DNA from: Pseudolysobacter antarcticus
GTDB taxonomy: Bacteria > Pseudomonadota > Gammaproteobacteria > Xanthomonadales > Rhodanobacteraceae
Assembly (NCBI RefSeq): GCF_004168365.1
Contig: NZ_CP035704.1
Span: forward strand, 4,464,001-4,528,000
Length of the DNA stretch: 64,000 nt
Direction of reading: 5' to 3'
In this document: piece after piece, positions 20,399-42,058 of the stretch
Layout of the letters: every line of letters begins with the position of its first letter
How positions within the stretch are numbered: position 1 is the first letter of the stretch
Notes under the pieces: model-generated
Seen by the model: the letters and a program-made list of their open reading frames with translations, nothing else
Databases searched by the model: none
Told to the model about the DNA's origin: nothing
Position numbers and translations under genes: made by a program

Positions 20399-20453
20399 CG
20401 TTATAGAAGCGTAGTAGTTGGGCACGATTAATACGATCCAGATGAGGGCTAAC

Positions 20454-22203: not shown

Positions 22204-22241
22204 AACGGGAGAGTTCCTACGAAAAAGTGGACACCCTGTTA

Positions 22242-25089: not shown

Positions 25090-28000
25090 ATGCAACAAAA
25101 CATATCCCGGTTTTATGTCACCGCTGCGCTGTTTTTTCTGCTCGGCCACGGCCAAGTCGCAGGCGCAGTCGACACCGCGCAGCGCTGCGAATCGCTAGTC
25201 AAGGCGGATGTGGTCGCGCTGGATCAGGCGTTTCAGGTCAACCGGCTCGGCACTACGCGCACCGATGGCGAAATTTACGCGCTGCGTGCGGACGTGGTTT
25301 CCACCGATGCCAATAGCCGCGATCTGCGCCCCGGCCAAGTGATGTTGCGATCGGACAAACGTCCGCGCCCGATGGTGTTGCGCGTGAATGCCGGCAGCTG
25401 CCTGGAGATCACGTTCACCAACCTGCTCGATCCGAAGCAGAAAGACCCCATGCAGCCGGTGACGCGCAATGCATCGATGCACGCCGCCGGCATGCAGGCG
25501 ATCGACAGCATCGCCGATGACGGCACGTGGGTCGGGCAGAATCCGATCATTGGCAATGGACAAATGAGTGGTCTCGTCGCGCCCGGCGCAACCATCGTGT
25601 ATCGATTGTTTGCGCAGGAAGAAGGCACCAATCTGCTCTCCAGCACCGCGGCGCAATACAACAATTTCAACCCGATGCAGATTTCCACTGGCTTGTTCGG
25701 CGTGGTCACGGTGGAGCCGCGCGGCAGCGAGTGGTATCGCAGCCAGGTGTCGGAAGCCGACATGAAACTCGCGACGCGCGGCGCGCTGCCGGACGGCCAT
25801 CCCAAGATCGACTACAACGCCGTTTTTCCGCTCGGCCATGCGCATGCGGGCACGCCGATTTTGCGCATGATCGATAGTCAGGGCCGCATCGTCCATACCG
25901 ATTTGACCGCGATCATTACCGGCCCGAATCGCGGCCAACTCGCTGGCGGCGCGGACGACAATCCGATGTTGCCTGATCGAAACCAGCCATTCCGCGAAGT
26001 CTCGGTGGTGTATCACGAGTCGCAGGATGTGGTGCAGGCGTTTCCGTACTTCATGTCCGCGACAAATAGCCAGGTGCCGCGCAACGATGCCGGTGCGGAT
26101 ACGTTCGCGATCAACTATGGCATCGGCGGCATCGCGCCCGAAGTGCTGGCGAACCGCATCGGCGTTGGTCCAGCGGCGGATTGTCCTGAGTGCAAGTTCG
26201 AGGAATTTTTCCTGAGCTCGTGGGCGATCGGTGATCCGGCGTTGGTCGTGGATGTGCCGGCCAACGCGCCATGCACAACCGCCGAGTTGCAAGATCTCAC
26301 GCTCAAGTTCGACGCCGATCCGCTCACGTTCAACCCGACCAATCCGTGCAAACCCACTGGCGGCAAAAAAGCGACCAAGGCGTTTTATCCGGACGATCCG
26401 TCCAACGTGTATCACTCCTATCTCGGCGATCATGTGCGTTTTCGCGTGCTGCATGCCGGCGCCGCGGTGCATCACATCCATCACCATCATGCGCATCAGT
26501 GGCTGCGCAATCCCGACAGCGACGAGAGCAGTTATCTTGATTCGCAAGCGGTTGGGCCCGGTTCGTCGTTCACTGCCGAACTGGTTTTCGGCGGTAGCGG
26601 CAATCGCAATCTGACCACCGGCGATTCGATATTCCACTGTCATTTTTATCCGCATTTCGCCGCAGGAATGTGGGCGCTGTATCGCGTGCACGACGTGTTC
26701 GAAGGCGGCACCGCGCTCGACGAACAAGGCCGGCCACGCGCCGATGCGCGTGCGTTGCCAGATGGCGAAATCATGCGCGGCACGCCGATTCCGGCAGTCG
26801 TGCCGTTGCCGTTGTATGCGATGGCGCCGATCCCCGCACCGGTGAAAATCATCGAGGGCCAAGCGCATATGAGCGGCGATGGCCATCCGGGATTTCCGTT
26901 CTTCGTGCCGGGTGTCGCCGGTCATCGTGCGCCGCATCCGCCGCTGGATTTCGCGACTGATCCGACGACCAAAGAATCGCTCGACGGCGGACTGCCGCGC
27001 CACATGATCCAGGCCGCGACGATCGCCAACGAACAGCACACCGCGCTCGACTGGTCGAAAGATCTGCTGACCATCAAGGCCTATCAATTGCCGGAAAAAG
27101 GCACGCCGCAGGAACTCACCGCGATGGCGTATTTCGGCCATCAACTGCATGCGAGTTTCACGCCGGAAGGTGCGCCGCAACCGTTCAAGGTGAACGGTCT
27201 GCCGCGCGGCCCGCAGCCCGGCGCGCCATTCGCCGATCCGGCCGTGGTTGATGGCAAGGCTGTAGGCAATCCGCTGCGCAATTACCGAGGCGTGAATCTG
27301 CAACTCGATGTTGCGTTCAACAAGGCCGGCTGGCATTTCCCGCAGCAGCGCATTCTTTCGTTGTGGGGTGACGTGAAGGATTACGTCGAAGGCCGCAAGC
27401 CGCCCGAGCCGCTGTTTTTCCGCGCCGCCAACAACGATGTGATCGAGTATTGGCACACCAATCTGATCCCGGCGTATTACGAACTGGACGACTTCGAAGT
27501 GCGCACGCCGACCGATATTCTCGGCCAGCATATCCATCTCGTGAAGTTCGATGTGCTCGCCTCCGATGGCGCGGCCAACGGCTTCAATTACGAAGACGGC
27601 ACGTTCAGTCCGGAAGAAGTGCGCGAGCGCATCCACAGCATCAACCAGACCGGTGGTTTGTGGGATGCGACGCACAAGCAACAGCGCAAGCTCACGGCGA
27701 AATCGATCAAGGAACTCGGCAACGGCCCGTCGCCCGGAAGCCTCGCATGGATTGGCGCGCAGGCTACCGTGCAGCGTTGGTGGCTCGATCCGCTCATGAA
27801 CCAGCCGGCACCGGTGACCGACAAGGATCGCACCTACATGACCGTGTTCACGCACGATCATTTCGGGCCGTCCACGCACCAGATGGTCGGCTTGTATGGC
27901 GGCCTGCTGATCGAACCGACCGACACGACGTGGACTTCACTCGATGGCAAAATCCAGTTCGGCGTGCGCTACGACGGTGGCCCAACCAGCTATGCCGCGA

Positions 28001-30681
28001 ATATCGTTTTTAAATCGCCGCAACGTCAGGCCGACAACTATCGCGAATTCGCGCTCGAGTGGGGCGATACCCAGCACGCCTACACGCAGGCCAGCCGTGA
28101 TCGGCACGATTGCTACAGCTACACCGAACCGAACGGCCATGTGGTCACACAGGCGCCGCCGTACTTCGATTGCGTAGCGCTTTCGCCGACGCAGAAATAT
28201 TACGGCTGGGCCGATCCGGCGCATGTATTGAATTGCCTCAATTGCCCGCCGCAGCCACTCGCGCAGACGCCGCAATCGCTCGTGAATAATTTGTACGGTC
28301 AGGCGCCGTGGCCACCGCAGCCATTGCTCGTGACGGATTTCGGCGCGGGCATGATCTCGATGAATTATCGCGGTGAACCGCTGCCGATGCGTGTGTTCAA
28401 ACCCGAGTCGGCGAATCCGAACGCAGCAGCGGATGCGGGCGATTTGTCGTCGGCGTTCCGCTCGATCCAGCGTTTCGATGCAGCGTACTCGACCCAGCCG
28501 ACACCCGGCGCGCAGATCGATCCCGAATGCAGCGGTATGAGCTGTTTCAAGTTCCCGCTGCAGCCGATTGCGCAAGGCATGAGCCCGACCGATCCGTATA
28601 CGCCGATGTTGCAAGCCTACGAAGGCGACAAGATCCAAATTCGCCTGCTCGCCGGCGCGCACACCTCGATGCACGATTACACCATGCACGGCATGCGCTG
28701 GCTGGCCGAGCCGTTCGAGAAAAATTCCGGCTATCGCAATACGCAGTTTATTTTGCTTTCCGAACACTACGAGTTGCTGTTCAACCTGCCGCGCATCGGT
28801 GCCGAAAAATCCACCGATTATCTGTACAACCCGGATGCGTCGTTCGAAGGTTTGACCAATGGCGCGTGGGGTTTGCTGCGCGCGTTCAATCCATCGAATC
28901 CGCAGGTTTTTCTCAAGCCGTTGAACGCCTCGGCGCCGCCACCGGTACAGCCGATCAAGCCGCCGCCGGGCATGCGTCCGGATTGCAATAGTAGCCAGGC
29001 GTGCATCCGCGAATACGAAGTCCACGCGATGACCGTGCAGCAAGCCCTTGGTCAGCCGAACGGCGTGCTGAAATACAACACGCGCGGCGCGAACCTGCTG
29101 AACGGCAAGAGTGATACGGCTAATCCGCTCGAAGATCCGCTCGCGCTGGTGTATGTCACCGTGCCGCAAGGCCAGACCTACCGACCGACCGGCAGCGTCG
29201 AGCCACTCGTGCTGCGCGCGAACGCCGGCGACTGGATCCACGTCACGCTCGTGAACGATTTCAAGGGCGGCGAAACGGTCTTCAAAACCTATGAAGCCGC
29301 CTCGCGTTTCGGCCTCACCTACGCAGTGCCGTACAACTACATACCGATCGCCTCGTCGGCGAATGTCGGCCTGCACGCGCAGCTTGTGACTTACGACGCG
29401 CGCAGCAGCGACGGCGCCAACATCGGCAACAATCCGGTGCAGACAGCCGCGCCGCAACGCAAGGTCGACTACTGGTGGTACGCCGGACGCATCGACGACG
29501 GCAAGCAGACACCGATCGAATTCGGCGCGATCAACTTGCTGCCATCCGATCCACTGATGCAGGTGTACCGCGGCCTGTTCGGCGCGCTCATCGTCGAGCC
29601 GCTCGGCTCGCACTGGCTGCCCGATCCGCAATCCAGCGCATCGGCCACGGTCTGGAACGGTGACAAAGTGTTCCGCGAATTCGTCGTGATGTACCAGAAC
29701 GACGCCAACATGCTGACCAACGGCAATTCATGGTGGGCGACCGGCAATCCGCTGGCGGGATTCAACTATCGCTCAGAACCGGCGTGGCTGCGTTTCGGCA
29801 AGGGCCTGAATACCGCGATGGGCATCGATGCGCCGAAAGACTGGAGCCAACTCACGCCGGACGACGTGCAGAATATTTCGCTGTTGTCGATGTCGGATGT
29901 CGACGAAACCAAAACCACAGCAAACCTGCTTGTGGGTGCCGAACCACAGACGCCGATCTTCCGTGCACCCGCGCACATGCCGGCGCGCTTCCGCCTCGTG
30001 ATGCCGGGCGGCGATGGCGACAATCAGATCACGTGGGAACTCACCGGCCATGTCTGGCAGGAAGAACCCTATACCGATGAGTCACGCAAGATCGGCTACA
30101 ACCCGAAATCGGTCAGCGAAAGCACCAAGACCGGCTTCGGCGCGGCGAGTGCGTACGACATCGTGCTGGACGACACGCCCGGTACCACGCCATCTGGCGG
30201 ACGTTATGGCGTGCCCGGCGATTATCTGTATCGCGGCTGGACTGCGAACATTTTCCAGGGCGGTGCGTGGGGCGTGTTCCGCGTTGCGCCGTGGACGCCG
30301 CGCGATGGCGCGCGCCTGCCGGATACGGTTGGAATTTCGTCGCTCAGCAATACCGCGGGCATCACCACGATCAGCGGCTTCACCACGCCGTGTCCGGTGA
30401 CGGTGCAGGATGCCGGCGGCAAGGTCATCTGTCGCGCTGGCGGATTCGTGCCGCAGGTGACATTGAGCGGCGGCGGTACGGCCAAGGTCGTCAACGGTCT
30501 GTGGACGTTGACGAGCAAGGCATCCGTGAACACTGCATTCGATGTGACCTCGCCCGCGGGCGGTGTTGCGGCATGGAAAAACACCGCCGTGCCGTTGCTC
30601 GCAGCAAGAGCCGAAGCCGCGCCGCAGGTGACGCCGACAAAGACCTTGCCGAACCGGCCGAAACGGTTGCCGCGTCACTGA
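25090..30681 (+). CDS. Giant secreted multicopper oxidase (MofA/MnxG-like)
   Basis: An 1863-residue protein, several times longer than ordinary laccases. Residues 1-26 are a Sec signal peptide (YVTAALFFLLGHGQVAGA). The copper centre is visible: a His-rich stretch HHIHHHHAHQW at residues 461-471 and the trinuclear/type 1 motif HCHFYPHFAAGM at 516-527 (HCH-x3-H-x4-M). Further cupredoxin-like units follow, with His-rich segments THDHFGPSTHQM (near 921) and HTSMHDYTMHGMRW (near 1192), so five or more repeats of the fold are likely. Size and motif order recall the giant oxidases MofA and MnxG, implicated in Mn(II) oxidation; the substrate here is unproven. It starts the operon behind a strong ribosome site. 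Confidence 0.82.
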   Translation: MQQNISRFYVTAALFFLLGHGQVAGAVDTAQRCESLVKADVVALDQAFQVNRLGTTRTDGEIYALRADVVSTDANSRDLRPGQVMLRSDKRPRPMVLRVNAGSCLEITFTNLLDPKQKDPMQPVTRNASMHAAGMQAIDSIADDGTWVGQNPIIGNGQMSGLVAPGATIVYRLFAQEEGTNLLSSTAAQYNNFNPMQISTGLFGVVTVEPRGSEWYRSQVSEADMKLATRGALPDGHPKIDYNAVFPLGHAHAGTPILRMIDSQGRIVHTDLTAIITGPNRGQLAGGADDNPMLPDRNQPFREVSVVYHESQDVVQAFPYFMSATNSQVPRNDAGADTFAINYGIGGIAPEVLANRIGVGPAADCPECKFEEFFLSSWAIGDPALVVDVPANAPCTTAELQDLTLKFDADPLTFNPTNPCKPTGGKKATKAFYPDDPSNVYHSYLGDHVRFRVLHAGAAVHHIHHHHAHQWLRNPDSDESSYLDSQAVGPGSSFTAELVFGGSGNRNLTTGDSIFHCHFYPHFAAGMWALYRVHDVFEGGTALDEQGRPRADARALPDGEIMRGTPIPAVVPLPLYAMAPIPAPVKIIEGQAHMSGDGHPGFPFFVPGVAGHRAPHPPLDFATDPTTKESLDGGLPRHMIQAATIANEQHTALDWSKDLLTIKAYQLPEKGTPQELTAMAYFGHQLHASFTPEGAPQPFKVNGLPRGPQPGAPFADPAVVDGKAVGNPLRNYRGVNLQLDVAFNKAGWHFPQQRILSLWGDVKDYVEGRKPPEPLFFRAANNDVIEYWHTNLIPAYYELDDFEVRTPTDILGQHIHLVKFDVLASDGAANGFNYEDGTFSPEEVRERIHSINQTGGLWDATHKQQRKLTAKSIKELGNGPSPGSLAWIGAQATVQRWWLDPLMNQPAPVTDKDRTYMTVFTHDHFGPSTHQMVGLYGGLLIEPTDTTWTSLDGKIQFGVRYDGGPTSYAANIVFKSPQRQADNYREFALEWGDTQHAYTQASRDRHDCYSYTEPNGHVVTQAPPYFDCVALSPTQKYYGWADPAHVLNCLNCPPQPLAQTPQSLVNNLYGQAPWPPQPLLVTDFGAGMISMNYRGEPLPMRVFKPESANPNAAADAGDLSSAFRSIQRFDAAYSTQPTPGAQIDPECSGMSCFKFPLQPIAQGMSPTDPYTPMLQAYEGDKIQIRLLAGAHTSMHDYTMHGMRWLAEPFEKNSGYRNTQFILLSEHYELLFNLPRIGAEKSTDYLYNPDASFEGLTNGAWGLLRAFNPSNPQVFLKPLNASAPPPVQPIKPPPGMRPDCNSSQACIREYEVHAMTVQQALGQPNGVLKYNTRGANLLNGKSDTANPLEDPLALVYVTVPQGQTYRPTGSVEPLVLRANAGDWIHVTLVNDFKGGETVFKTYEAASRFGLTYAVPYNYIPIASSANVGLHAQLVTYDARSSDGANIGNNPVQTAAPQRKVDYWWYAGRIDDGKQTPIEFGAINLLPSDPLMQVYRGLFGALIVEPLGSHWLPDPQSSASATVWNGDKVFREFVVMYQNDANMLTNGNSWWATGNPLAGFNYRSEPAWLRFGKGLNTAMGIDAPKDWSQLTPDDVQNISLLSMSDVDETKTTANLLVGAEPQTPIFRAPAHMPARFRLVMPGGDGDNQITWELTGHVWQEEPYTDESRKIGYNPKSVSESTKTGFGAASAYDIVLDDTPGTTPSGGRYGVPGDYLYRGWTANIFQGGAWGVFRVAPWTPRDGARLPDTVGISSLSNTAGITTISGFTTPCPVTVQDAGGKVICRAGGFVPQVTLSGGGTAKVVNGLWTLTSKASVNTAFDVTSPAGGVAAWKNTAVPLLAARAEAAPQVTPTKTLPNRPKRLPRH

Positions 30682-32555
30682 TGCGCCGCGCATTCGCCAT
30701 GCGTTTTGCTGTGCTCGCATGCCTCGTATGTGTTGCGGGCGCGCGTGCCAGCGAGTTGGCGCAGGCATCGCCGGTGCCTGCGCAGCACGAAGTCGATCAA
30801 GGCATCGCGGTGGATTTCAGCGCGTTGCCGGCTGCGCACATCGGCGATCCGACCATATTCGCATTCACCCTCACCGACACCGCCAGCGGCACGCCGATCA
30901 GCGGCGCGCGCCCAGCGGCATGGCTCGTTGCGCACGACAAAAATACGTCTGACAAAAATGGTAGCAACGCGCCGCAAAGTTGCAAACAACAGGTCGCCAC
31001 TTATCTCAGTGCCGACCTGTTTCGACGCGCCGATATCGATCTCAACAGCTATTACGTCTTGTCGCTGAACGACGACAATTCGATCAGCGTAGTCGATCCA
31101 CTGTTCGGCTTCGGCGGCTCGAAATTGCTCGCGATGTTGCCGTTGCCGAGCCGCGCCGCAGACTGGGCGCTTGCAACGCAAAACGATGCATTGTTCGTGA
31201 CGATGCCGACGAGCGCGAAAGTGGCGATCGCCGATACACGAAGCTGGAAGATCGTCGACACCATCGCCGCCGGGCCGAATCCGCGCCGCATCGTTTTGCA
31301 GGCCGATCGCGCGTGGATCGCGGACGATGAAGGGCTCAGTGTCATCGATGTAAAAACCCATGCATTGACCCGACTGCGTGTCGGCGCAATACGCGAACTC
31401 GCAACCAGCAACGATGGCGATCTGGTGTTCGCGACCGGCGCACACGATGTGCTGATCCTCGATGCTCACGCGGTTAAAGTGCTGGCCGATATCGTCGTCG
31501 ATGGCGTACCCGATTTGCTCGCGTATTCGAGTGCTGCCAAGGCGATTTATGCCGCCGATGCGTTGGCCGGAAGACTTTTTGCGATCGATGTGCGCAGTCA
31601 TGCGATTGCCGCGACTGTCGCGATCCGACCCGGCGCCACGCAGCTGCGTTTTGCACCCGATGGTCGGCACGCGCTGATGCCGAATCCGCAACAGAATGCG
31701 GTGCAGGTGCTCGACGCGGCAAGCAATCGCATCGTGCAAAGTCTGGACATCAGCAATGCGCCGGTGCAGGTCAGCTTCACTTCGCTGCTCGCGTATGTGC
31801 GGCGCCGTACGAGCGAAACCGTGGCGATGATTCCGCTCGATCAAATCGGCGTTGAAGGCCGTGCGGTTGGTGTTGCGGATTTCCCCGCGGGTCAACACGC
31901 GCTGGGGGACGGCGGTCTCGCCGACTCCATTGTCGGCGCCCCCGACCAACCCGCGGTGCTGGTGGTGAACACCGCCGACAACATGATTTATTACTACAAG
32001 GAAGGCATGGCTGCGCCGGCCGGCGGCTTCAACACTTACGGCGCTACGCCGCGCGCGGTGCTGGTGGTCGATCACGGTTTGCGCGAGCAACAACGCGGCC
32101 GTTATGCGACCGCGATGCCGGTGAAAAACCCCGGCGCCTACGATGTCGTGATGTTCGTCGATGCGCCGCGCGTAGTCGCGTGTTTCGGCCTGACCATTGC
32201 TGCCGAAAAAGAGGCGGTGGAAAAACCCGTGACACGCGTAACCGCCATCGATCCGCCACACCAGTTGCAGGCCGGCGCGGCGGTGCGATTGCAGTTTGCG
32301 CTGAGCGATGTAGCGCACAAGGAATTGCGCCACGCCGACGACGTGCGTGCGCTCGCCTTCGAAGCACCCGGCGTGTGGCAGCGACGCGGTGATCTCAAAC
32401 GTCTAAGCAACGGCAATTACGAACTCGAATTCATTCCGCCGACCGCGGGCACCTATTACGTCTGGATCGAATCGGACGCACTCGGCCTCGCACGCAACAA
32501 CTCGCAATTCTCGGTGTATCAGGCGATCGATGCCGCGATCAATCAGACCAATTAA
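30681..32555 (+). CDS. Secreted beta-propeller (YVTN/cytochrome-D1-like) protein
   Basis: A 624-residue exported protein whose ATG overlaps the oxidase stop (TGATG), so it is translationally coupled. After a signal peptide (FAVLACLVCVAGARA), residues 40-110 resemble the FixH/YtkA-type fold, and residues 125-500 are repeats of about 40 residues (SISVVDPLFGFG, KVAIADTRSWKIVDTI, GLSVIDVKTHALTRLRV) typical of seven-bladed YVTN propellers. The last 110 residues form another immunoglobulin-like domain (ELEFIPPTAGTYYVWIES). No haem-binding CxxCH is present. It probably binds or stabilises the oxidase or a metal outside the cell; the role is inferred. Confidence 0.75.
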   Translation: MRRAFAMRFAVLACLVCVAGARASELAQASPVPAQHEVDQGIAVDFSALPAAHIGDPTIFAFTLTDTASGTPISGARPAAWLVAHDKNTSDKNGSNAPQSCKQQVATYLSADLFRRADIDLNSYYVLSLNDDNSISVVDPLFGFGGSKLLAMLPLPSRAADWALATQNDALFVTMPTSAKVAIADTRSWKIVDTIAAGPNPRRIVLQADRAWIADDEGLSVIDVKTHALTRLRVGAIRELATSNDGDLVFATGAHDVLILDAHAVKVLADIVVDGVPDLLAYSSAAKAIYAADALAGRLFAIDVRSHAIAATVAIRPGATQLRFAPDGRHALMPNPQQNAVQVLDAASNRIVQSLDISNAPVQVSFTSLLAYVRRRTSETVAMIPLDQIGVEGRAVGVADFPAGQHALGDGGLADSIVGAPDQPAVLVVNTADNMIYYYKEGMAAPAGGFNTYGATPRAVLVVDHGLREQQRGRYATAMPVKNPGAYDVVMFVDAPRVVACFGLTIAAEKEAVEKPVTRVTAIDPPHQLQAGAAVRLQFALSDVAHKELRHADDVRALAFEAPGVWQRRGDLKRLSNGNYELEFIPPTAGTYYVWIESDALGLARNNSQFSVYQAIDAAINQTN

Positions 32556-32577
32556 ACGCAACAACGGAGCCGCAATC

Positions 32578-34470
32578 ATGACGAGCAATGCTGCAACACC
32601 GGTCCAGCCCCAATACACCTACAACGCGACGACAAAAATGTTCCAGCTCGTGCACTTCACCACGCCGGGCTGCAACAACGACTTTCCGAACAACCCGACC
32701 GCATATGCAAAACTGGTGCAGGCGTGGAGTCAGAACGTCAACGGTTTCACCAACCAGGCGATCACAGGAAATCCGTGGAATGCGCTGAACTCCGCGCAGC
32801 AGACCGGCTACTACAATCCACTCAACACGCCGATTCCCGCTGGCTCAGGCGCAGTCGATGTAGCGTGGATCGCGTTCCCGAACCGGCTTGTGCAATACCT
32901 CGGCCAGAACCAGTCGCCGGCTAATCCGTACGGCCTGAGCATGGACATGCTGTACCAGCTCGCCGACACCGGCCAGCTCGGCAAATACCAGATTCCGACG
33001 GTGCGCTGCCCGCAAGCAGACTGGAGCGGTTTCAGCAAGCAGCAAGGCATTGAACCTTACGGTCCCTATGGCCCGCGCGGCTGGCTCGATGAATATTGCG
33101 AATTCAGCGTCGTGCGCAACAGCGCCGGCAAGATCACGCGCGTCGATTTCACCTGTGAGAATCCGGAATATTTCCAAACCCTGTGGCGCGTCGATCCGCA
33201 AACCTGTGCGGACGTCTTTACGGCTGCATTGAACATGGGCGCGCCGCAAAATCAGTGGGTCAAGGTGACGATGGCCGACCTGACCTTGCTCGATCCGAAA
33301 ACCGGCGCGAAGGTGATTGATCCGCAAACCGGCCTGCCCGCGTACAACCCGCTCAACAAGTGGAACAGCGGCACAGCGACCGTGCGCAGCGGCGCGCAAG
33401 CCAGCTTCAGCGGCGGTGCGATGCACCTTACGGCGACGCCGAACACGCTACAAACCGAGCTTGGCCTCGGCGCCGGGGCGACCGTGCAGCGCCTGGCGGG
33501 CGATACCGATCCGCAAGCGCTGATCTGCTGCGGCCAGTACGGTCAGAATTATCGCAACAGCGATCCGCACATCGGCCAGAGCATCAATCTTGCGGTTGGT
33601 GCGGGTTTCAATATTTCGCTGGCCGATCCGCCGGGCCTGTACATCCAGATGCCGAGCTTCGCGCAATACACGCTGCCGGCCGATCCGAAATTGCCGAAAG
33701 GCGCGAAGGCGTCGGACTGCTGGCAGATCGTGCGCGGTTTCGAAAAAATCATCGATCCGATAACCAATACGCCATTCCCGGGTTCTTTCATCCTGCATGC
33801 GGCGTTACAGATTCCGCAGGCGTGGATTGATGCCGGCGTATCGTTCACGATCGGCGACATCATGATCGCGGGCGAGGCGATCAAGTGGGGTTCGCAGGTG
33901 CAGGCGACGCTTGAGGTCGCTCTGTTTGGCCGACCGATTCCACCGGTCGCCGCGACACCGAAACAGATCTGCGTCGGCGCGCCGAATCCGGTAGTGCAGG
34001 CGCAGCCGTTGCAAATCATGTTCCAGAATCTGTGGAACGCGTATTACGGCACCACGATCAACACACCCGCGGGCGTGCCGATGGTATTGGCGAGCAACTC
34101 GAGCATCATTCCGCCGACATTGCGCACGGGTGCGGCGAATGTTCCCCTCGCACTTACCTACGCCGCGCCGAGCGGCACAACGCCGATCCCGCAAGCGCAG
34201 TGGCCCAGGGTGATATTCACACTGCCGAACGGTCAGGCCGATAACAGCATCACCACCACGGTGATCGGTTTTACCCCAAGCGTCACTTACGCCGTGCCCG
34301 GCAATACCTACCCGAGTGCATCGCAACTGCTGAACCTGCACGTCAGTGTCGCAGCGAATGCGCCGGCGGGCGTACGTGGAGTGGTCATCGTGCCATTCGG
34401 CCAGACCTTTTCGCCGTCCATCACCCCGGCGCCGGCATTTCTCGTAGTTGCATCATCGACCACGGCTTGA
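32578..34470 (+). CDS. Operon protein of unknown function, no signal peptide
   Basis: A 630-residue protein with GGAG before the ATG at 32578. I do not recognise its family. It begins MTSNAATPVQPQYTYNATTK without any hydrophobic signal, unlike nearly all other products of this operon. It is rich in Asn, Pro, Gln and Thr, with few charged residues and scattered Cys (TPGCNND, YCEFS, TCENPEY, ICCGQYG), a composition that suggests a folded extracellular or surface protein. The C-terminal 100 residues look like a beta-sandwich. It lies 22 bp after the propeller gene. How or whether it leaves the cytoplasm is unclear. Confidence 0.6.
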   Translation: MTSNAATPVQPQYTYNATTKMFQLVHFTTPGCNNDFPNNPTAYAKLVQAWSQNVNGFTNQAITGNPWNALNSAQQTGYYNPLNTPIPAGSGAVDVAWIAFPNRLVQYLGQNQSPANPYGLSMDMLYQLADTGQLGKYQIPTVRCPQADWSGFSKQQGIEPYGPYGPRGWLDEYCEFSVVRNSAGKITRVDFTCENPEYFQTLWRVDPQTCADVFTAALNMGAPQNQWVKVTMADLTLLDPKTGAKVIDPQTGLPAYNPLNKWNSGTATVRSGAQASFSGGAMHLTATPNTLQTELGLGAGATVQRLAGDTDPQALICCGQYGQNYRNSDPHIGQSINLAVGAGFNISLADPPGLYIQMPSFAQYTLPADPKLPKGAKASDCWQIVRGFEKIIDPITNTPFPGSFILHAALQIPQAWIDAGVSFTIGDIMIAGEAIKWGSQVQATLEVALFGRPIPPVAATPKQICVGAPNPVVQAQPLQIMFQNLWNAYYGTTINTPAGVPMVLASNSSIIPPTLRTGAANVPLALTYAAPSGTTPIPQAQWPRVIFTLPNGQADNSITTTVIGFTPSVTYAVPGNTYPSASQLLNLHVSVAANAPAGVRGVVIVPFGQTFSPSITPAPAFLVVASSTTA

Positions 34471-34480
34471 GGACGAGACC

Positions 34481-36040
34481 ATGAATCACACTCACACTTC
34501 CATCGCAATGTGCGCATTGGCATCCGCTCTGTTGCTGGCCGCCTGTCACCACCAGGAAACGACCAAGACGACCGCGCCGACTGTGCCTGCGCAAGCCGTC
34601 ACCGCGCCGACGCAAGCCGCGCCCGATACGGCGAATGCACTTGCAAACGGCAGCACGAGCAACTGCCTCACGCCGCCTTTTCTCGTATCGTCAACCAGCG
34701 GTAAATACGGCTATACGGTGCCGGCGGATTTCGCGCTGACACGCCAAGCCGACGCCAACTGTTTTGCGTGGCAAGAATTCATCGCGCTGAACTGGATCGC
34801 CTCGACCAGCGAACGTGGTAATCCGAACACCGCGGCATCACCAAGCAGCTTCGGCACAGCGAACGATCAGCGTGCGACGGTCTGGGAAACCTACAAGGAA
34901 TCCGACGAAGTATTTCTTGCCGATGCAAAAAATCCGGGGCCGTGGAACTACGCGAACGGCGCGGCGGCCAGTATCAAGATGCTCGGCGGTCTGCGCTCGG
35001 AAGTCGGCGCCAAACCGGTGCTTGATCTGAGCGCGATCGGCCAAGCCTCGCAAGGCAGCCCGTGGCTCACGGCGCAGAGCAAAATCCTCACGCTGTACGA
35101 GCGCCGCATGAACGAGGACGAGTACAACTACATCGTCAACTACGGCCTGTACAACGCCAACGTGCAACAAACCTTCGTACTGAAGATGGGCATCAACCTG
35201 CCTGACGGCACACCGACGAAACCGTCGTTCGGCAACACCGGTTCGATCGAAACCAAAGCGGCGTGGCTTGAGCTGCCGAATCCCGCCGACTGGCCACGCT
35301 TCAAGATTTCCAAGGCGATCGTGACGTACCCGGGGCAGGCGTCGAAAACCGTCGTGGTCGGGCTGACCGGTTTGCACATCATCCACAAGACCGCGCTCGG
35401 CCAGCAGTTCATCTGGGCGACGTTCGAGCACAAGCAGAACGTGCCCGATGTGAACCAGGTTGCGAGTCGCACGTTGACGCCGCCGTACACGTATTACAAC
35501 GTCAACTGCAATCCGAGCACCGACTATTACAGGTGCGTGGCGAATGCCAATCCGGCCAAGGTGAACGGCGGCAAGAATCCGTATAACGCGCCGATCCAGG
35601 CCGTGCGGCAGACGCCGATCGCATCGCGTGCCAACAACGATGTGGCCGGGCTGAATCAATACGTCTGGTCGCAGGTGATCGCGAAGCAGAATCCGAATTC
35701 GGTGTTCCTCAACTACCAGCTCGTCAACACGTTGTGGTCGAACCAGAACACACCGATTCCGCCGGGCTCGCATACACCGCTGATCGCCGCACAACTGTCG
35801 CCCGGCCCAAGTCAGGAACCGGTCGCGAATGCCACGATGGAAACCTATGTGCAAAGTCTCACGTGTCTGGATTGCCACGCGTCGGCGCCGATTGCGACGG
35901 TGAAAAAAGCGACCACGCTGAAGATTTTCGATCCGGCCACGGCGGGCACCGATGCGACCAAGGCAAATCCGTTTGCGTCCGATTATTCGTTCCTGCTCGG
36001 CAACGCCACGCAGCCGAAATCGCCGCACGCCGGCCACTGA
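34481..36040 (+). CDS. Haem-binding lipoprotein (cytochrome c-like C-terminus)
   Basis: A 519-residue protein with a lipoprotein signal (CALASALLLAACHH, lipobox LAAC) and a Pro/Thr/Ala-rich linker. The large middle part has no motif I know; the segment QEFIALNWIAS and several Trp/Tyr-rich blocks recur in uncharacterised exported proteins. Near the C-terminus there is a single haem c site CLDCH at residues 462-466, followed by a possible axial Met-free tail ending in PHAGH. It starts 10 bp after the previous stop, with GAGGA as ribosome site. It is probably an outer- or inner-membrane-anchored electron carrier linked to the oxidase. Confidence 0.7.
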   Translation: MNHTHTSIAMCALASALLLAACHHQETTKTTAPTVPAQAVTAPTQAAPDTANALANGSTSNCLTPPFLVSSTSGKYGYTVPADFALTRQADANCFAWQEFIALNWIASTSERGNPNTAASPSSFGTANDQRATVWETYKESDEVFLADAKNPGPWNYANGAAASIKMLGGLRSEVGAKPVLDLSAIGQASQGSPWLTAQSKILTLYERRMNEDEYNYIVNYGLYNANVQQTFVLKMGINLPDGTPTKPSFGNTGSIETKAAWLELPNPADWPRFKISKAIVTYPGQASKTVVVGLTGLHIIHKTALGQQFIWATFEHKQNVPDVNQVASRTLTPPYTYYNVNCNPSTDYYRCVANANPAKVNGGKNPYNAPIQAVRQTPIASRANNDVAGLNQYVWSQVIAKQNPNSVFLNYQLVNTLWSNQNTPIPPGSHTPLIAAQLSPGPSQEPVANATMETYVQSLTCLDCHASAPIATVKKATTLKIFDPATAGTDATKANPFASDYSFLLGNATQPKSPHAGH

Positions 36041-36058
36041 GAATCGAGGATCAAGAAC

Positions 36059-36889
36059 ATGGATCAGCAACCCGTTCCAAGCTGGCTCGCCGCGTCGTGG
36101 CAGCGCCTCTGGGTCATCAACAACAATCAGGGGCCACCGAAAGACACGGTCAACGTGCGCAATATTCAGACGCCGACACTGTTCGGTGACTGCCGCATTC
36201 CGAAGGATCGGCCTGCGTTTCCCGATGCAAAATCGCTGGCCGATCTGACCGATGCGCAGTTGAAAACGCTGTATGCGCAGGAAGGATTCAGTGGCTACAC
36301 CACAGTCGATGGCTACATCATCACTTGGCATCACGAGATCGGTTACCAGCCGCCGGATGGCACGATCGACATCGGCCGTTTCGAGATTCTCGGCGGACGC
36401 AACGTGCTCGAACACGGCGTGCAGGCGGTGTATCTCGAACACTGGTGGCGGCTCGAACAATCCGGCAGCGATTTCCTCGGCGTGAAAGTGATGCGCAAGC
36501 TCGGCGACGGTCGCCAGCGTGTGCATGAAATCCTCTCTGTGAGCGGCGACCATTTCATCTACGCACGCAATCGCGATTTCGATCTGCCGATGGCGAACTC
36601 GCTGGCCGATCTGATCAAGCAGGAAAAATACACACGCAAGCAGATTCTCGCGGTGCTCGATTGCGAGGTATCGCACGGCTTTGTACTCGGCGGTCGCTGC
36701 CCGTGGCAAGTGCAGTTCTCGACGTTGCCGTTCAAGGAAAACAAGCCGCTCGATTTCGCCGCGCAGATCGTGGTGGATCCGAAAACCGGCGCGCTCTCGC
36801 ATCGCTGCAGCACACCCGATTTGAGCTGGTCGTTTCCGGTCAACACGCTGGATATCGAAGACCTGCTCGTGCTGTTTCCGCCAGCGTGA
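36059..36889 (+). CDS. Operon protein of unknown function, beta-rich
   Basis: A 276-residue protein beginning MDQQPVPSWLAASWQRLW, without signal peptide or membrane segment. The spacing from the previous stop is 18 bp and GAGGA precedes the ATG. The centre (TTVDGYIITWHHEIGYQPPDGTIDIGRFE in two halves, then ILGGRNVLEHG) suggests a lipocalin-like or other small beta-barrel, with a conserved-looking His pair that could bind haem or metal. This is a reading of pattern only; I do not recognise the family. Two Cys flank the C-terminal half. Confidence 0.6.
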   Translation: MDQQPVPSWLAASWQRLWVINNNQGPPKDTVNVRNIQTPTLFGDCRIPKDRPAFPDAKSLADLTDAQLKTLYAQEGFSGYTTVDGYIITWHHEIGYQPPDGTIDIGRFEILGGRNVLEHGVQAVYLEHWWRLEQSGSDFLGVKVMRKLGDGRQRVHEILSVSGDHFIYARNRDFDLPMANSLADLIKQEKYTRKQILAVLDCEVSHGFVLGGRCPWQVQFSTLPFKENKPLDFAAQIVVDPKTGALSHRCSTPDLSWSFPVNTLDIEDLLVLFPPA

Positions 36890-36912
36890 ATACCAACTTT
36901 GGGAGTCGAACC

Positions 36913-38691
36913 ATGTACCGATTGATTGCAAGTCTCACCCTCGCGCTCGGCGTTTGCGCGCTGGCGCACGCCGATACCAACAAGGCGATCCAGGTCTCGT
37001 CGCGTCACGCCACCGATGCGAGTCCGCATCCACTGGCGCTGCACGCGCCCGGCATCGCGCACTGTCTGATCCAGAACAACAACACCGGCAATCCGCTGGC
37101 CCCGGGCAGCAACGACGATGCCTTGTTCAAGCTGCTGTCAGCGCAACCGCGTTGTCCGGAAAACGCGCTGGTATTTCGCGACCTCGTGCTCGCCAGCAAG
37201 ATGACCTTGCATCCGGCGATGGTGGCGAATCGCGGTTTCCACAATCCGTTGCCGCAAGGCAGTTTCAGTTTCTTCGAATCGGTGCAGGGCGCGTATGCCG
37301 GGCAAACTCTCGCGCCCGGCGACTGGTTTTTCGGCCACTTCACCGCCGCCTCGATCGACAACGTCGCACTGACCAGCGTCATGGCGCCGCAACAGGCCGC
37401 GACACCGGATAATCTGCTGCTCGAAACGCTGGTGTGGGATCCGAAAAAACAGGTCTTCAACTTCTACGAAATCCGCGGCACCGGTCAGGGCGGTGAATGG
37501 TTTTATCGCGGCGACTCGGTGGATATCCTCGCCGACATTGCCAATCTGGATCGTGGCTACGATGCCTCGCAGCCGATCTTCATGGGCCCACTCGATGGCG
37601 GCAAGGCGACCATGCCGCGACTGCGTTGCTCGGGCTGCCACATGAACGGCGGGCCGATCATGAAGGAGCTGAAAGCGCCGCACGATTCGTGGTGGACGGT
37701 CGAACGTCCGCTGGATTTCGGTGCGTTGCGCATCGCGCCCGAGTTCAACACCATCCTCGCCAATCTGGTCAGTGCCAACGAGCTGGAAAAGTGGATCAAG
37801 GCCGGCGACGAAAAACTGCTGGCGAGCGCGCCGTTCTGGAAAACCCGCTCGGCGTTGTCGTTGCAGGAACAGTTGCGGCCGTTGTTCTGCGAGCAGGAAG
37901 TCAATCTCGAATCCGATCCACAGCCGTTCGAAGGACCGGATGCGAATATCCAAGCGCCGGTCGGCGCGTTCGTCGATCAGCGCCTCGTGCCGGACCAGCA
38001 AACGGTAAGCATCGCCAAGGATCTGTATACCGGTTCGCTGACATTGTTCCAATCGCAGTTCATCGATTACCAGAGCGGCGGTTTTGCCAACTCGGTGCAG
38101 CCGATCAATCAGATCGATGCTGACCACGCCTTCGAGACGCCGGTGAAATCGCATAGCGACATGCTGGTCGTCGACAAACTCGTCGCTGCCGGCGTGATCG
38201 ATCAGAAGTTCGTGTTCGATGTGATCGCCACCGACATGACGCGCCCGATGTTTTCGCCGGGACGTTGCGGATTGTTGCAGAAACTGCCGACCGGCCCGGC
38301 CACGGCGGACTGGAAAAACAAGTTCCAGCAAAACCTCGCGAGCACGAATTCGGCAGCGGCAAAAGAGCTGCTTGCCAACCTCGGCGATGCGGCGCGCACA
38401 CCGGCTTATCATCGCGCCAAGGCAAAACAACTCATCGCGAAAATCCAGAGCAACGCCGCGCAGCAGCCCGCGGTGAACGGTTATGTGCGACTACTCACGC
38501 AACGCCGCATCGCGGTGTATCAGGCGCAGATTTCGCAGCATCCGCAAGGGCAGATTTTCGAGCCGGGTTTCCGCCTGATTTTCCCGACCATGCAGTTGTT
38601 CCAGAAGAATCAGCAACAGATTGCGTACGGCGGCGTGCCCGATCAATATTGGCTGAATCCGGCGAGCGGCGCCGTGGAGCTGACGGAGTGA
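36913..38691 (+). CDS. Secreted single-haem cytochrome c-like protein
   Basis: A 592-residue exported protein with a signal peptide (LIASLTLALGVCALAHA). The haem site CSGCH is at residues 239-243, within LRCSGCHMNGGPIMKEL. Cys residues near the N- and C-termini (IAHCLIQ, APGRCGLL) may form disulfides. The longer frame upstream overlaps the previous gene in another frame and is discarded: the ATG at 36913 has GGGAG upstream. The last codons overlap the SCO gene (GTGA). It probably accepts electrons from the multicopper oxidase pathway or helps its maturation; both are inferred. Confidence 0.72.
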   Translation: MYRLIASLTLALGVCALAHADTNKAIQVSSRHATDASPHPLALHAPGIAHCLIQNNNTGNPLAPGSNDDALFKLLSAQPRCPENALVFRDLVLASKMTLHPAMVANRGFHNPLPQGSFSFFESVQGAYAGQTLAPGDWFFGHFTAASIDNVALTSVMAPQQAATPDNLLLETLVWDPKKQVFNFYEIRGTGQGGEWFYRGDSVDILADIANLDRGYDASQPIFMGPLDGGKATMPRLRCSGCHMNGGPIMKELKAPHDSWWTVERPLDFGALRIAPEFNTILANLVSANELEKWIKAGDEKLLASAPFWKTRSALSLQEQLRPLFCEQEVNLESDPQPFEGPDANIQAPVGAFVDQRLVPDQQTVSIAKDLYTGSLTLFQSQFIDYQSGGFANSVQPINQIDADHAFETPVKSHSDMLVVDKLVAAGVIDQKFVFDVIATDMTRPMFSPGRCGLLQKLPTGPATADWKNKFQQNLASTNSAAAKELLANLGDAARTPAYHRAKAKQLIAKIQSNAAQQPAVNGYVRLLTQRRIAVYQAQISQHPQGQIFEPGFRLIFPTMQLFQKNQQQIAYGGVPDQYWLNPASGAVELTE

Positions 38692-39269
38692 GAAAAGTGC
38701 GCAAATTGCTGGCGGTGATCCTGTTCTTCGGCGCAATGGCGGTGGTGTTCGCCGCCGCACCGAGCGGTGCCGCGAAATATTTCGACGGCATCGATCTAGT
38801 CGACCAGGACGGGCACAGTGTTGATCTTTATCGCGACGTGATCGCCGATCATGTCGCGGTAATCCACACGTTTTTTACGAGCTGCACGGCAAGTTGTCCG
38901 GTCGTCATGAGCACGCTGAAATCCTTGCAAAGCCAGCTCGGCGCGAAGATGGGGCGCGATGTGCGCCTCATCTCGATCACGGTCGATCCGGCGCACGACA
39001 GCCAGCACGCGCTGAAGGAATATGCGCAACGCCTCAACGCCAAACCCGGCTGGTATTTCCTCACCGGATCGAACGAACAAATCGCCGCCGCGCTCAAGCG
39101 CATCGGTCAATACACCGCAGAACCGGATGCGCACATGGACTTGATCGTGGCCGGCAACGACCGCACCGGGCTGTGGAAAAAAATCAACGGCTTAGCGACC
39201 ACGACGGAAATCAACAGCCTCATCATGGGCGTGGTCAATGATCAAGGTGGAGCGGCGGCCGCGAAATGA
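38688..39269 (+). CDS. SCO1/SenC-family copper chaperone, first copy
   Basis: A 193-residue thioredoxin-fold protein with a signal/anchor segment (LLAVILFFGAMAVVFAA). The copper-binding CxxxC appears in FFTSCTASCPVVM and a downstream conserved His-like position lies in DAHMDLIV. SCO proteins load copper into cytochrome oxidase or other cupro-enzymes in the periplasm. The GTG start overlaps the previous stop by four bases and has GACGGA before it. In this operon it is most likely dedicated to the giant oxidase. Confidence 0.85.
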   Translation: MRKVRKLLAVILFFGAMAVVFAAAPSGAAKYFDGIDLVDQDGHSVDLYRDVIADHVAVIHTFFTSCTASCPVVMSTLKSLQSQLGAKMGRDVRLISITVDPAHDSQHALKEYAQRLNAKPGWYFLTGSNEQIAAALKRIGQYTAEPDAHMDLIVAGNDRTGLWKKINGLATTTEINSLIMGVVNDQGGAAAAK

Positions 39270-39365
39270 TCTCGGCCGAGAGCGGCGACACAATCAATCT
39301 TCCACACGCTTTTACTTCACCCTGAAAACTGCGATCTTGCGCAAAAAAAACCAAGGCGTTTCTGC

Positions 39366-39962
39366 ATGCGTTTCAAAATTGTCTTGCCCGTTCTGAGTGT
39401 CTTGCTGGCTTGCTCCGCGTACGCGCAAGAGCATCGCCATCCGGTGAGCGTCGCCACGAGCAATGAAAAGACAATCACCGCCTCGATTGCCAATGTGAAC
39501 GTGATCACGCAGGCCGATCGGCCCGTGCATTTCTACAGCGATCTGGTGCAAGGCCGATTGGTGGCGGTGAATTTTATCTTCACCGAGTGTGGCACTGTCT
39601 GCCCGTTGATGGGTTTGCGTTACGCGCAATTGCAGGCGTTGCTCGGCCCGCAGGCGCGTGATGTGACGCTGCTTTCGATCAGCATTGATCCGCTTAACGA
39701 CACGCCGGCGCGGCTCGCTCAATGGAGCCAGAAATTTGGCGCAAAACCCGGCTGGACACTGGTCACCGGCGGCAAGGCGGACATCGACACACTCGTGAAA
39801 TCGCTCGGCTCATCCGCGGTTGATCCAACCTCGCATTCACCGCTACTGATCGTGATCGACGATCGCCATGGCGGACCGTGGCAACGGCTCGATGGCCTCG
39901 CTGACCCATCGACGATCGCGCGTATCCTGCGCGAGCATCTCGCACTGCCAGTCAGGCAATGA
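39366..39962 (+). CDS. SCO1/SenC-family copper chaperone, second copy
   Basis: A 198-residue secreted protein with signal peptide (IVLPVLSVLLACSAYA) and thioredoxin fold. The copper site is CGTVCP, and SISIDPLNDTP is the family strand that follows. It differs from the first copy in length and sequence, so the pair is an old duplication or two separate acquisitions. A 96-bp gap lies before it, long enough for an internal promoter. A Ser/His segment (DPTSHSPLLIVID) carries the metal-binding His. Confidence 0.86.
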   Translation: MRFKIVLPVLSVLLACSAYAQEHRHPVSVATSNEKTITASIANVNVITQADRPVHFYSDLVQGRLVAVNFIFTECGTVCPLMGLRYAQLQALLGPQARDVTLLSISIDPLNDTPARLAQWSQKFGAKPGWTLVTGGKADIDTLVKSLGSSAVDPTSHSPLLIVIDDRHGGPWQRLDGLADPSTIARILREHLALPVRQ

Positions 39963-41113
39963 TGCTGCGAATGGGCTTCGTTGCGCTCGCCATGCTCGGC
40001 GCCGGATTGACCGAGCAACAGCAACGCGGTCGCGAAATTTTTCTGCACGGACAAACCGACAGCAATCACAGCATCGATGCCACGCTGGGTAATGAGAGTA
40101 CCGTCGTTCCAGCTACGTTGCTGCCGTGCGCGAATTGCCACGGCGATGATGCGCACGGCAAGCCGGAGGGTGGCGTGCGTCCGGCCGATATCACGCCAGT
40201 GGCACTCACACGCAGCCTCACACTCGGCTCGCGTTCGCGACCGGCATACACGCCAAGCTTGCTCAAGCGCGCGATCACGATGGGACTGGATAGCGCCGGT
40301 AATCCGCTAGATAACGCAATGCCGCATTTTCGTCTGACGCAGCAAGATGCGCGCGACCTGCTGGCTTATCTCGATGTCGTCGGCAGTGTCTCGCAACCGG
40401 GAATCGGCGACGATCGCATTCGCATCAACGTGCTTGGCGCCGACGATCTCGTCGTTGCGGATGCATCGATGTATGGCCGCAGAATCGAGATCAGTCGCAC
40501 GCGCGATGACGATGCTTTCCTCACCATCGATACATCGGCGGACAGCAGTGCCAGCATCGCTGCAGCCACGCGCGACGGCATGCCGACCATCGCGACGTAT
40601 GCTGCGCAAGCCGCAACAGTTGCCAATATTTTTATTCTGACCGCGAGCATGCAGGATCAGATCGCGGCACTCGAAACCTACGCTCGCAGCATTAATTCCA
40701 GAAGCATTTTGCGCACAAAGGATTGCAGCGGAACAAGTCATATTGCAACGGATACGCTGGTATTGCTGACTTCCGCCGCGGCGCAGAACTGTGCCTTGAA
40801 TAGTCTACCTGCCGCGCTAGATCAGCGTGTCATCGTCGCCGCACCCATGCCTCCCACACCGCAAGGCAATCGTGATGCAGCGAGTGCGGCGCTATCGATT
40901 GCGACCTCAGTGCTGGCGCAACTCGGACGTGATGTCACGCGCCGAACTTTTCTCGATGCACTGGAGCACATCTATCGCTCCGAGCATGCGGGCCTCGCGC
41001 CGATCACATGGAGCAGCCAGCGACACGTTGGCAGCAAGGCTGTCTGGCTCATGAAATTGAAATTGCCGGAACAGAGATTATCCGGCGAACCCGGTTGGGT
41101 TGAAGGCGAATGA
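39959..41113 (+). CDS. Cytochrome c fused to a periplasmic-binding-protein-like domain
   Basis: A 384-residue protein starting on ATGATG that overlaps the preceding stop. The first 140 residues are a cytochrome c domain: haem site CANCH at residues 57-61 and a likely Met ligand in NAMPHF. The remainder resembles the C-terminal lobe of type I periplasmic binding proteins, clearest in RRTFLDALEHIYRSEHAG and RHVGSKAVWLMKL. The N-terminal hydrophobic stretch (MGFVALAMLGAG) is short, so export is probable but not certain. It ends the operon; the neighbour at 41177 is convergent. Confidence 0.72.
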   Translation: MMLRMGFVALAMLGAGLTEQQQRGREIFLHGQTDSNHSIDATLGNESTVVPATLLPCANCHGDDAHGKPEGGVRPADITPVALTRSLTLGSRSRPAYTPSLLKRAITMGLDSAGNPLDNAMPHFRLTQQDARDLLAYLDVVGSVSQPGIGDDRIRINVLGADDLVVADASMYGRRIEISRTRDDDAFLTIDTSADSSASIAAATRDGMPTIATYAAQAATVANIFILTASMQDQIAALETYARSINSRSILRTKDCSGTSHIATDTLVLLTSAAAQNCALNSLPAALDQRVIVAAPMPPTPQGNRDAASAALSIATSVLAQLGRDVTRRTFLDALEHIYRSEHAGLAPITWSSQRHVGSKAVWLMKLKLPEQRLSGEPGWVEGE

Positions 41114-41176: not shown

Positions 41177-42058
41177 TTAACGCAGTGCCACGCGCGTTTT
41201 CAGAATGACTTCGACACGACGATTCTGTTGACGGCCCGCATCGGTATCGTTCGAGGCCACAGGAAAATCCGGGCCAAGCCCCTGCGTGGTCATGCGCTGC
41301 GAATCGATGTTGTGACTATTCAGATACATTTTCACTGCATCGGCGCGGCGCAATGAAAGATCGACGTTGTGCTCGCGATTACCGGTCGAGTCCGTGTGAC
41401 CTTCTATCTGAATCGTAGCTGCTGGATCGTCACTCAGCGCGCGCACCAATCCATCAAGCGTGCGTGCCGCTCCCGGCTTGAGTTCGGCGCGATCCGTTTC
41501 GAACAGAAAATCGCCCAAGGTCACGAGCATGCCGCGCTGCGTCTGCTGTGCTTGCAGATCGCGCAGATCGGCGCGCAACGAATCAACTTCCGCACGTGAT
41601 TGTTCTGCATCGCTACGCGCGATGACAGCGTTGCGGTGTTCTGCATCGGCTGCAGCCAGCGCGGTGTTCGCGACGACTTGAGCGTTACGCAGATCGCGCG
41701 ACTTGGCATCGACCAGCAAGCGGTCACGTTCGACGCCCAGATCCTTCGCCTTGATTTCGGCATAGCGCGCCAATCCCTGCGCCTCGGCGATGCGAATCAG
41801 ATGATCGGCGATATACACATGATGCTCGTACAGTTGCGCATCCGTGCCGCGGCGATCAAGCACCACCACATTCACTGCGCTATCGGCTTGGCGAAGTTCG
41901 TCGGTCGCGTTCGGGCCGATGCGCGGATCCTCGTGCGCATGACGCAAATCATTTTGCAGACGTACCACTTCCGGCGCAGGGCCGGGTGGAACGCTGGCGC
42001 AACCCGCGACCAAACCCAGCAGGATAGCTGCGCTGATAAGTTTCCGGGAAATAATCAT
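41177..42058 (-). CDS. OmpA-family lipoprotein with DUF4398-like N-terminus
   Basis: A 293-residue lipoprotein (lipobox LVAGCAS). Residues 30-165 are alpha-helical and resemble DUF4398; residues 175-290 are an OmpA C-terminal peptidoglycan-binding domain with DFLFETDRAELKPGA, EGHTDSTGNREHNVDLSLRRA and the final NRRVEV motif. It probably links the outer membrane to peptidoglycan. It overlaps the gene before it by four bases (ATGA), so the two are co-expressed. Confidence 0.88.
   Translation of the reverse strand: MIISRKLISAAILLGLVAGCASVPPGPAPEVVRLQNDLRHAHEDPRIGPNATDELRQADSAVNVVVLDRRGTDAQLYEHHVYIADHLIRIAEAQGLARYAEIKAKDLGVERDRLLVDAKSRDLRNAQVVANTALAAADAEHRNAVIARSDAEQSRAEVDSLRADLRDLQAQQTQRGMLVTLGDFLFETDRAELKPGAARTLDGLVRALSDDPAATIQIEGHTDSTGNREHNVDLSLRRADAVKMYLNSHNIDSQRMTTQGLGPDFPVASNDTDAGRQQNRRVEVILKTRVALR

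Follow-up and report, generated by a model that had tools for sequence, protein, structure and literature searches.

An MnxG-type oxidase operon of Pseudolysobacter antarcticus and the probable haem-partner module that it carries

What purpose manganese oxidation serves in bacteria, and whether the cell profits from it, is still an open question, on which a haem partner within an oxidase operon gives a direct handle. Such an arrangement is raised by a window of 64,000 nucleotides from Pseudolysobacter antarcticus (contig NZ_CP035704.1), in which nine genes on the + strand (25090-41113; g1 to g9, Table 1) are headed by an 1863-residue multicopper oxidase. A sequence-only reading of the window had proposed that these genes may be a new extracellular oxidation system, and the question is whether the locus is such a system or a known operon with additions. 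We consider it probable that the locus, with g1, g2, g7, g8 and g9 as its core, is an MnxG-type Mn(II) oxidase operon that has acquired a haem redox-partner module (g3-g4, with the lineage-specific g5-g6). The claim of a new oxidation system is too strong, because g1, g2, g7, g8 and g9, judged by their sequences, reproduce the known mnxG operon; this is a known operon type carrying a new module, and the interest lies in the module.

The oxidase g1 is similar along its full length to the NCBIfam MnxG model NF041487 (1894 positions), which it covers in four stretches (1-589, 653-786, 823-1371, and 1466-1893) with 1085.7 bits. This is below the curated equivalog cut-off of 3100 bits, and we therefore use the name MnxG-type rather than MnxG equivalog. 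Nine of 369 genomes of the class match this model, including the window's own, and none is above the cut-off; two of them (G081 and G307) have short, weak matches only. The Pfam multicopper domains are likewise weak in g1 and below cut-off. The solved MnxG chain 9bxa_A matches with E 3.6e-77, and the HxxHxH, HCH and two HxH copper motifs line up in the alignment, so that MnxG, previously named as the nearest parallel, is more than near. The intact HCH-x3-H-x4-M centre that had been described is at residues 516-527, and all twelve copper ligands (H462, H465, H467, H516, C517, H518, H522, M527, H814, H816, H922, and H924), which from family knowledge we take to be the type 1 and trinuclear copper binders, are invariant in 15 of 15 aligned oxidase rows (14 distinct; L016 and L065 are one genome). 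HxxHxH and HCHxxxHxxxxM stand ahead of the two HxH motifs, an order that is inverted relative to ordinary laccases, as it is in MnxG. From these features we infer that g1 is a Mn(II) oxidase of the MnxG type. The printed alignment shows an Ala in 9bxa_A opposite His522 of the HCHxxxH motif, and 9bxa_A may be a mutant protein; a literature search with most subscription journals outside its reach gave no paper about this structure, and listed one for manganese oxidation together with Tahibacter or Pseudolysobacter. When part of the oxidase motif was searched for as a DNA pattern, there were no hits.

The rest of the core points the same way. In Pseudomonas putida GB-1 the mnxG operon runs mnxG, a YVTN propeller gene, two SCO1/SenC genes, a gene for a cytochrome c plus binding protein, and a SurA gene (PMC11409713; this and the other papers are cited for the excerpts available). 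The genes g1, g2, g7, g8 and g9 are the same set in the same order as in strains GB-1, MS-1 and DSV-1 (PMC11409713) and OF001 (PMC8218464), with the propeller, two SCO genes and cytochrome/binding-protein gene that mark the GB-1 type. Both SCO proteins have a CxxxC motif, and three of the nine proteins have CxxCH (CLDCH in g4, CSGCH in g6, and CANCH in g9), in agreement with the propeller, three haem proteins and two copper chaperones listed previously. The C-terminal part of g9 is probably binding-protein-like; it has no Pfam match there itself, and its relative in locus L067 matches both PF13458 and PF00034. Eight mnx relatives (L013, L014, L015, L017, L018, L051, L052, and L054) have oxidase, propeller and SCO matches with the propeller after the oxidase, and six of these also match g9; L015 has an annotated c-type cytochrome at that place and L013 has none.

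The genes between propeller and SCO are another matter. The earlier remark that several parts match nothing holds for g3-g6 as far as models go (neither Pfam nor NCBIfam has a match at E 0.1 or below), but not for g3-g4 as a pair, which is widespread and not private to the mnx operon. Scanning 84,980 species genomes with two peptide patterns, which distant relatives escape, gave 50 loci with 53 copies of g3. In 50 of these copies g4 is directly downstream (gap -4 to 155 bases), the exceptions being the second copy in L062, the copy in L066, and one of two in L068. The contexts of the 50 named loci are tyrosinase (27), mnx (8), LodA (3), and none of these (12), where an mnx context means at least two mnx genes and neighbours were read in the sequence retrieved around each locus, at most 10 kb per side and often less. 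One of the twelve, L061, has a propeller piece only and would be a ninth mnx locus; L060, L061, L062 and L080 do not contain the oxidase itself, and the matched mnx genes start there at or near the contig end. Pfam scans of selected members are the basis for naming the tyrosinases (PF00264) and LodA (PF17990, PF18417) with its LodB-like flavoprotein. Immediately ahead of g3, in the same orientation, stand 21 genes related to one another, and the two of them tested with Pfam are tyrosinases; in Paracoccus denitrificans PD1222 the gene ahead of g3-g4 is annotated as tyrosinase family. In the window, L058-L063 and L065 the genes g2, g3 and g4 stand in this same order, with g4 identities of 66-83%. 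Three Kordia pairs (L070, L075, and L076) are preceded by related genes, the one tested being a phosphatidylserine decarboxylase and not an oxidase. No tyrosinase was matched in the window's own genome, but the control for this search matched nowhere either.

The association with mnx genes appears to have arisen more than once. In a quick maximum-likelihood tree built from 33 of the g3 proteins, four changes of the mnx label are required, at least three of them forced by well-supported branches (Shimodaira-Hasegawa-like approximate likelihood ratio test support of 95 or more): the Rhodanobacteraceae/Massilia group, the two copies in a Kuenenia-labelled metagenome-assembled genome (MAG; L067), and a betaproteobacterial MAG (L080) whose g3 groups with tyrosinase-linked g3 of Halomonadaceae. 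This tree carries L069 and L078 (tyrosinase) and L092 (LodA) under the label 'other', which does not affect the mnx label. The position of the module also differs: it follows the mnx genes in L067, where two tandem g3-g4 pairs lie behind the operon (6481-13360 of that contig), it follows SCO-SCO-cytochrome in L080, and it is ahead of SCO in the window. As g3 is present in only three of 398 genomes of the phylum, one of them the window's own, a chance meeting with mnx genes is on this informal argument unlikely.

Relatives on plasmids widen the range of neighbours. Among 31 plasmid records matching g4, seven were opened by hand-picking (Paracoccus and six with a lone g4-like gene). One example is L149, where the lone g4-like cytochrome has a GMC oxidoreductase and its small subunit next to it, which is the layout of a three-subunit GMC dehydrogenase; in such enzymes the cytochrome is the electron acceptor. 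In L154 a GMC oxidoreductase is also near, with one gene between, and the neighbours are a xanthine-dehydrogenase-like molybdenum enzyme in L150 and a LodA/GoxA protein with a flavin adenine dinucleotide (FAD) protein in L152. The g3-g4 module is thus not manganese-specific: the pair, or its cytochrome alone, is also beside tyrosinases, LodA-type quinoprotein oxidases, GMC enzymes and molybdenum enzymes. For g3 there are 25 matching plasmid records, seven of which were opened, and short g3 relatives lacking the Ig (immunoglobulin-like) domain were read in eight loci (L062, L109, L110, L146, L147, L148, L153, and L155). The other two genes have a narrower range, g5 being present in six and g6 in five of the 50 named loci, all from Rhodanobacteraceae/Lysobacterales; g5 has no plasmid match at E 0.01, and g6 finds itself and one marginal match in the 398 phylum genomes. 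On alphaproteobacterial plasmids the g6-like matches adjoin g3-like genes in 11 of 13 cases by coordinates and in a twelfth on inspection, and Azospirillum argentinense plasmid L147 has a 954-residue open reading frame (ORF; 7246-10110) fusing g6-like and g3-like parts, with the haem-motif cysteines replaced. Despite this neighbourhood and fusion, we rejected g6 as the haem partner of g3 in alphaproteobacteria because all four g6 relatives tested are without CxxCH.

What kind of protein is g4? The AlphaFold2 model (predicted local distance difference test, pLDDT, 77.9; predicted template modelling score, pTM, 0.82) has P460/c'-beta cytochromes as the top 16 of 30 rows in the VIA comparison, with Z of 5.2-6.4 and the next row at 3.5; the alignments span 126-143 residues of targets 135-161 long. 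The best P460 row with Foldseek (6hiu) ranks second, at a weak E of 0.13. A cytochrome P460/c'-beta-like fold is therefore likely for the modelled protein. Five residues are invariant among 31 of 52 copies aligned (K259, H299, C462, C465, and H466), and for K259 and H299 the same is true of another set of 13 rows that is more diverse. K259 is five residues after an invariant Gly (G+5), and a Lys is at G+5 in 19 of 30 P460-family loci (20 printed, with four Phe and six other or not found; the Lys printed for L132 comes from a chance match within a signal peptide, and the real residue of L132 is Phe). The cross-linking position is Lys70, Lys78 or Lys106 in P460 relatives and Phe61 in c'-beta (Table 2 of the excerpted PMC11928373), so that g4 has the P460 residue at G+5 and c'-beta the Phe. 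A D[YFW]x[FY] motif follows CxxCH within 40 residues in 27 of 31 g4 rows, 22 of 30 P460-family loci, and one of 32 other CxxCH ORFs, some of these last being of doubtful reality. A count of 18 of 19 for this motif in P460 was discarded as evidence, the set having been chosen partly by the motif; the figure of 22 of 30 is the recount.

The partner g3 is modelled with higher confidence (mean pLDDT 88.9, pTM 0.91). Its C-terminal Ig-like part is best matched by the alpha subunit of quinohemoprotein amine dehydrogenase (1jmx_A, Z 7.4 over 79 residues), and Foldseek gave no match to the model at E 0.001 or better. We do not call the fold new, because VIA covers 471-630 only and the main part has barely been tested. 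Two cysteines (C144 and C317) are invariant and two (C174 and C193) nearly so in an alignment of 33 of 53 copies. A sequence search of the PDB with profiles gave nothing for g4, and weak matches with unrelated names for g3, g5 and g6.

All nine ORFs are confirmed (Table 1), and the full set is conserved as such: all nine genes are in one locus in Tahibacter harae (L059), a Rhodanobacteraceae MAG (L063) and Tahibacter aquaticus (L065), and a Pseudolysobacter MAG has the same cluster across two contigs (L002 and L019), with identities of 83-96% for g1-g8 and of 80% for as much of g9 as precedes the contig end. An apparent absence of g8-g9 in T. aquaticus (L016) was rejected, both genes being present on the other flank (L065). 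Overlapping starts and stops had been taken to join the genes, and this is so at two of eight junctions (g1/g2 by 1 base and g8/g9 by 4 bases), whereas the other six are gaps of 5, 10, 18, 22, 23 and 96 bases. With the 96-base gap ahead of g8, and g8-g9 divergent and upstream of mnxG in L059, L063 and L065, a 7+2 arrangement would be as likely as a single nine-gene transcript. Upstream of g1 the best sigma-54 promoter candidate has 9 of 11 letters and is not convincing, and sigma-70 promoter and terminator scans gave counts no higher than in shuffles. An Rfam scan of 22000-44000 has a single match, a tRNA-Arg (ccg) at 22551-22627 on the - strand, ~2.5 kb upstream of g1. Two identical 1760-base copies (18056-19815 and 20449-22208), each with a 505-residue ORF that is transposase-like by eye, lie ~3-7 kb upstream of the operon, and the next ORF after g9 (41177-42058) is on the - strand.

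Table 1. The nine genes of the MnxG-type locus, with positions in the window.
Gene	Position	Strand	Features
g1	25090-30681	+	MnxG-type multicopper oxidase, 1863 residues; signal peptide by eye
g2	30681-32555	+	YVTN-type beta-propeller; Pfam Cytochrom_D1 4.1e-7; NCBIfam TIGR03866 2.7e-17 (below its cut-off)
g3	32578-34470	+	630 residues, unnamed family; C-terminal Ig-like domain about 475-627
g4	34481-36040	+	519 residues, monohaem cytochrome, lipoprotein-like by eye; P460/c'-beta-like predicted fold
g5	36059-36889	+	276 residues; no Pfam/NCBIfam family
g6	36913-38691	+	592 residues, monohaem protein (CSGCH); signal peptide by eye
g7	38697-39269 (GTG start)	+	SCO1/SenC copper protein, PF02630 2.3e-18
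g8	39366-39962	+	SCO1/SenC copper protein, PF02630 7.4e-18
g9	39959-41113	+	cytochrome c, PF00034 1.1e-5

A simple scheme can accommodate these genes. The SCO proteins g7 and g8 would help in copper loading of the exported g1, as their family suggests, and g1 would oxidise Mn(II), or less likely another small reductant, and reduce O2 at the trinuclear site for which it has the ligands. The monohaem protein g4, presumably membrane-anchored and with a likely P460-like fold, would form a complex with g3, as the near-constant pairing suggests, and would exchange electrons with the periplasmic cytochromes g6 and g9 on one side and with the oxidase, or reactive products of the oxidase, on the other. 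A redox-partner role fits better than one in cofactor assembly, given that g3 is almost always paired with a haem protein while the neighbouring enzyme varies (copper, quinone, flavin or molybdenum); the pair may be a general helper of such oxidases. A route through copper and haem to the membrane, as in the sequence-only reading, is possible on the gene content. In a bolder form g4 would be the founder of a group of giant P460-type cytochromes, with haem cross-linked to K259 and H299 distal, and would act with g3 as an add-on haem partner serving at least five unrelated oxidoreductase classes (the multicopper MnxG, the type-3 copper tyrosinase, the cysteine tryptophylquinone enzyme LodA, GMC flavoenzymes, and molybdenum hydroxylases), here tying Mn(II) oxidation to the cytochrome pool; we offer this tentatively, and think it rather unlikely. 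Two large families whose tested members have no Pfam or NCBIfam model would gain a function from a conserved pair common to the loci of tyrosinase, LodA and MnxG.

Several observations weigh against the redox-partner interpretation. MnxG, tyrosinase and LodA all use O2 themselves and can therefore turn over without a cytochrome acceptor, and the module is not needed by mnxG operons in general, since none of the eight mnx relatives with downstream genes visible has a tblastn match to g3-g6. No signal peptide is visible by eye in the g3 of the window, and how it would meet exported partners is unexplained. On the comparative side, the 27 tyrosinase loci are mostly from Pseudomonas relatives and not independent, 11-12 of the 50 named loci have none of the tested oxidases, no oxidase is named near the lone g4-like gene in L151 or directly beside it in L110, and the two Kuenenia g3 rows, which contribute to the forced changes, have long branches whose placement the tree program calls unsure. 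As to g4 itself, VIA Z values below 8 may reflect a common arrangement, and for this reason the P460-like fold is graded likely and not proven. PF16694 has no match to g4 in the Pfam scan and none in its own genome, and hhalign aligns g4 with P460 over only nine columns around CxxCH (score 28.1, compared with 23.1 for g6, which is another CxxCH family, and 18.7 for the best of 40 column shuffles).

For the g4 step the closest alternative, and the main rival, is peroxidase-like use of an open haem site, in which g4 would consume H2O2 or reactive products released by the oxidase, with H299 as distal acid-base, and would protect the enzyme or oxidise a second substrate. GMC and xanthine-oxidase-like enzymes can release H2O2, and in three of the eight loci with short g3 relatives (L148, L153, and L062) that gene is followed by a Dyp-type peroxidase; in Massilia horti (L062, 7380-10419) the two are just behind the mnx genes. 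LodA releases H2O2 as well, according to the excerpt of PMC4417212. The invariant H299 is four residues ahead of K303 by hand count, as the acid precedes Lys by four in P460, where the distal carboxylate is Glu96 or Asp102 (PMC11928373, Table 2), and a reference title within the excerpted part of that paper calls a c'-beta variant a peroxidase mimic. However, the H299 register comes from this spacing and not from a residue-level structural alignment, and five of the eight short relatives (L109, L110, L146, L147, and L155) have no Dyp-type peroxidase following. Nor is H2O2 the main product of MnxG or tyrosinase, and we regard this explanation as unlikely, if a serious competitor.

Less probable again is that g3-g4 is a maturation factor for the oxidase cofactor, through copper loading or quinone formation, in the manner of LodB or the tyrosinase caddie proteins. 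The association with copper and quinone enzymes and the conserved cysteines of g3 suit such a role, but two SCO proteins are already encoded in the mnx operon, a LodB-like flavoprotein is already present in two of the LodA loci tested by Pfam (L105 and L092) and, by annotation, in L152, and the copper and quinone enzymes have no cofactor chemistry in common with the flavin and molybdenum neighbours. We think it improbable that the locus is a new extracellular oxidation system, as first proposed, in the sense of one that gains energy by feeding electrons from Mn(II), Fe(II) or phenol into the respiratory chain. Three CxxCH proteins, including a lipoprotein-like cytochrome, in one cluster would fit this; against it, the MnxG oxidase reduces O2 directly, and Pfam recognises no quinone-interacting membrane protein among the nine, g3-g6 being unrecognised. 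The core is also the known mnxG set (PMC11409713, as excerpted). The least probable explanation is an ordinary mnxG operon with g3-g6 as passengers that have no functional tie to the oxidase, for although the eight relatives are without these genes and repeated-element copies lie upstream, the g2-g3-g4 order is conserved and the tree calls for at least three separate associations with mnx genes.

An MnxG-type operon with a proposed haem redox-partner module can be set beside several known systems. Relative to the P. putida mnxG operon the window has four extra genes between propeller and SCO, its oxidase is below the MnxG equivalog cut-off, and no SurA gene closes the set, the remaining genome not having been searched for one. 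The Bacillus-type Mnx, to which 9bxa presumably belongs and which we take to include MnxE/F subunits, has copper motifs aligning with those of g1 in a chain of 1227 residues rather than 1863. The mof operon of Leptothrix, with MofA, a Mip-like MofB, and a cytochrome, MofC (PMC8218464, in excerpt), resembles the window in joining an oxidase with a cytochrome gene, and differs in that none of the nine proteins has a Mip/FKBP Pfam match of the mofB type. Some operons combine genes for LodA-like proteins, tyrosinases and multicopper oxidases, and the authors who noted them suspect a functional link (PMC4417212); the available part of that paper mentions no pair of the g3-g4 type in these clusters. 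Finally, g4 is about three times longer than cytochromes P460 and c'-beta, with large insertions, no profile match, and, by the spacing argument, a His at the would-be distal carboxylate; with them it shares a late CxxCH, the Lys at G+5, the D[YFW]x[FY] motif and, probably, the predicted fold (PMC11928373, in the part available), and the proposed reading of g4 would extend the P460 haem fold beyond nitrogen chemistry.

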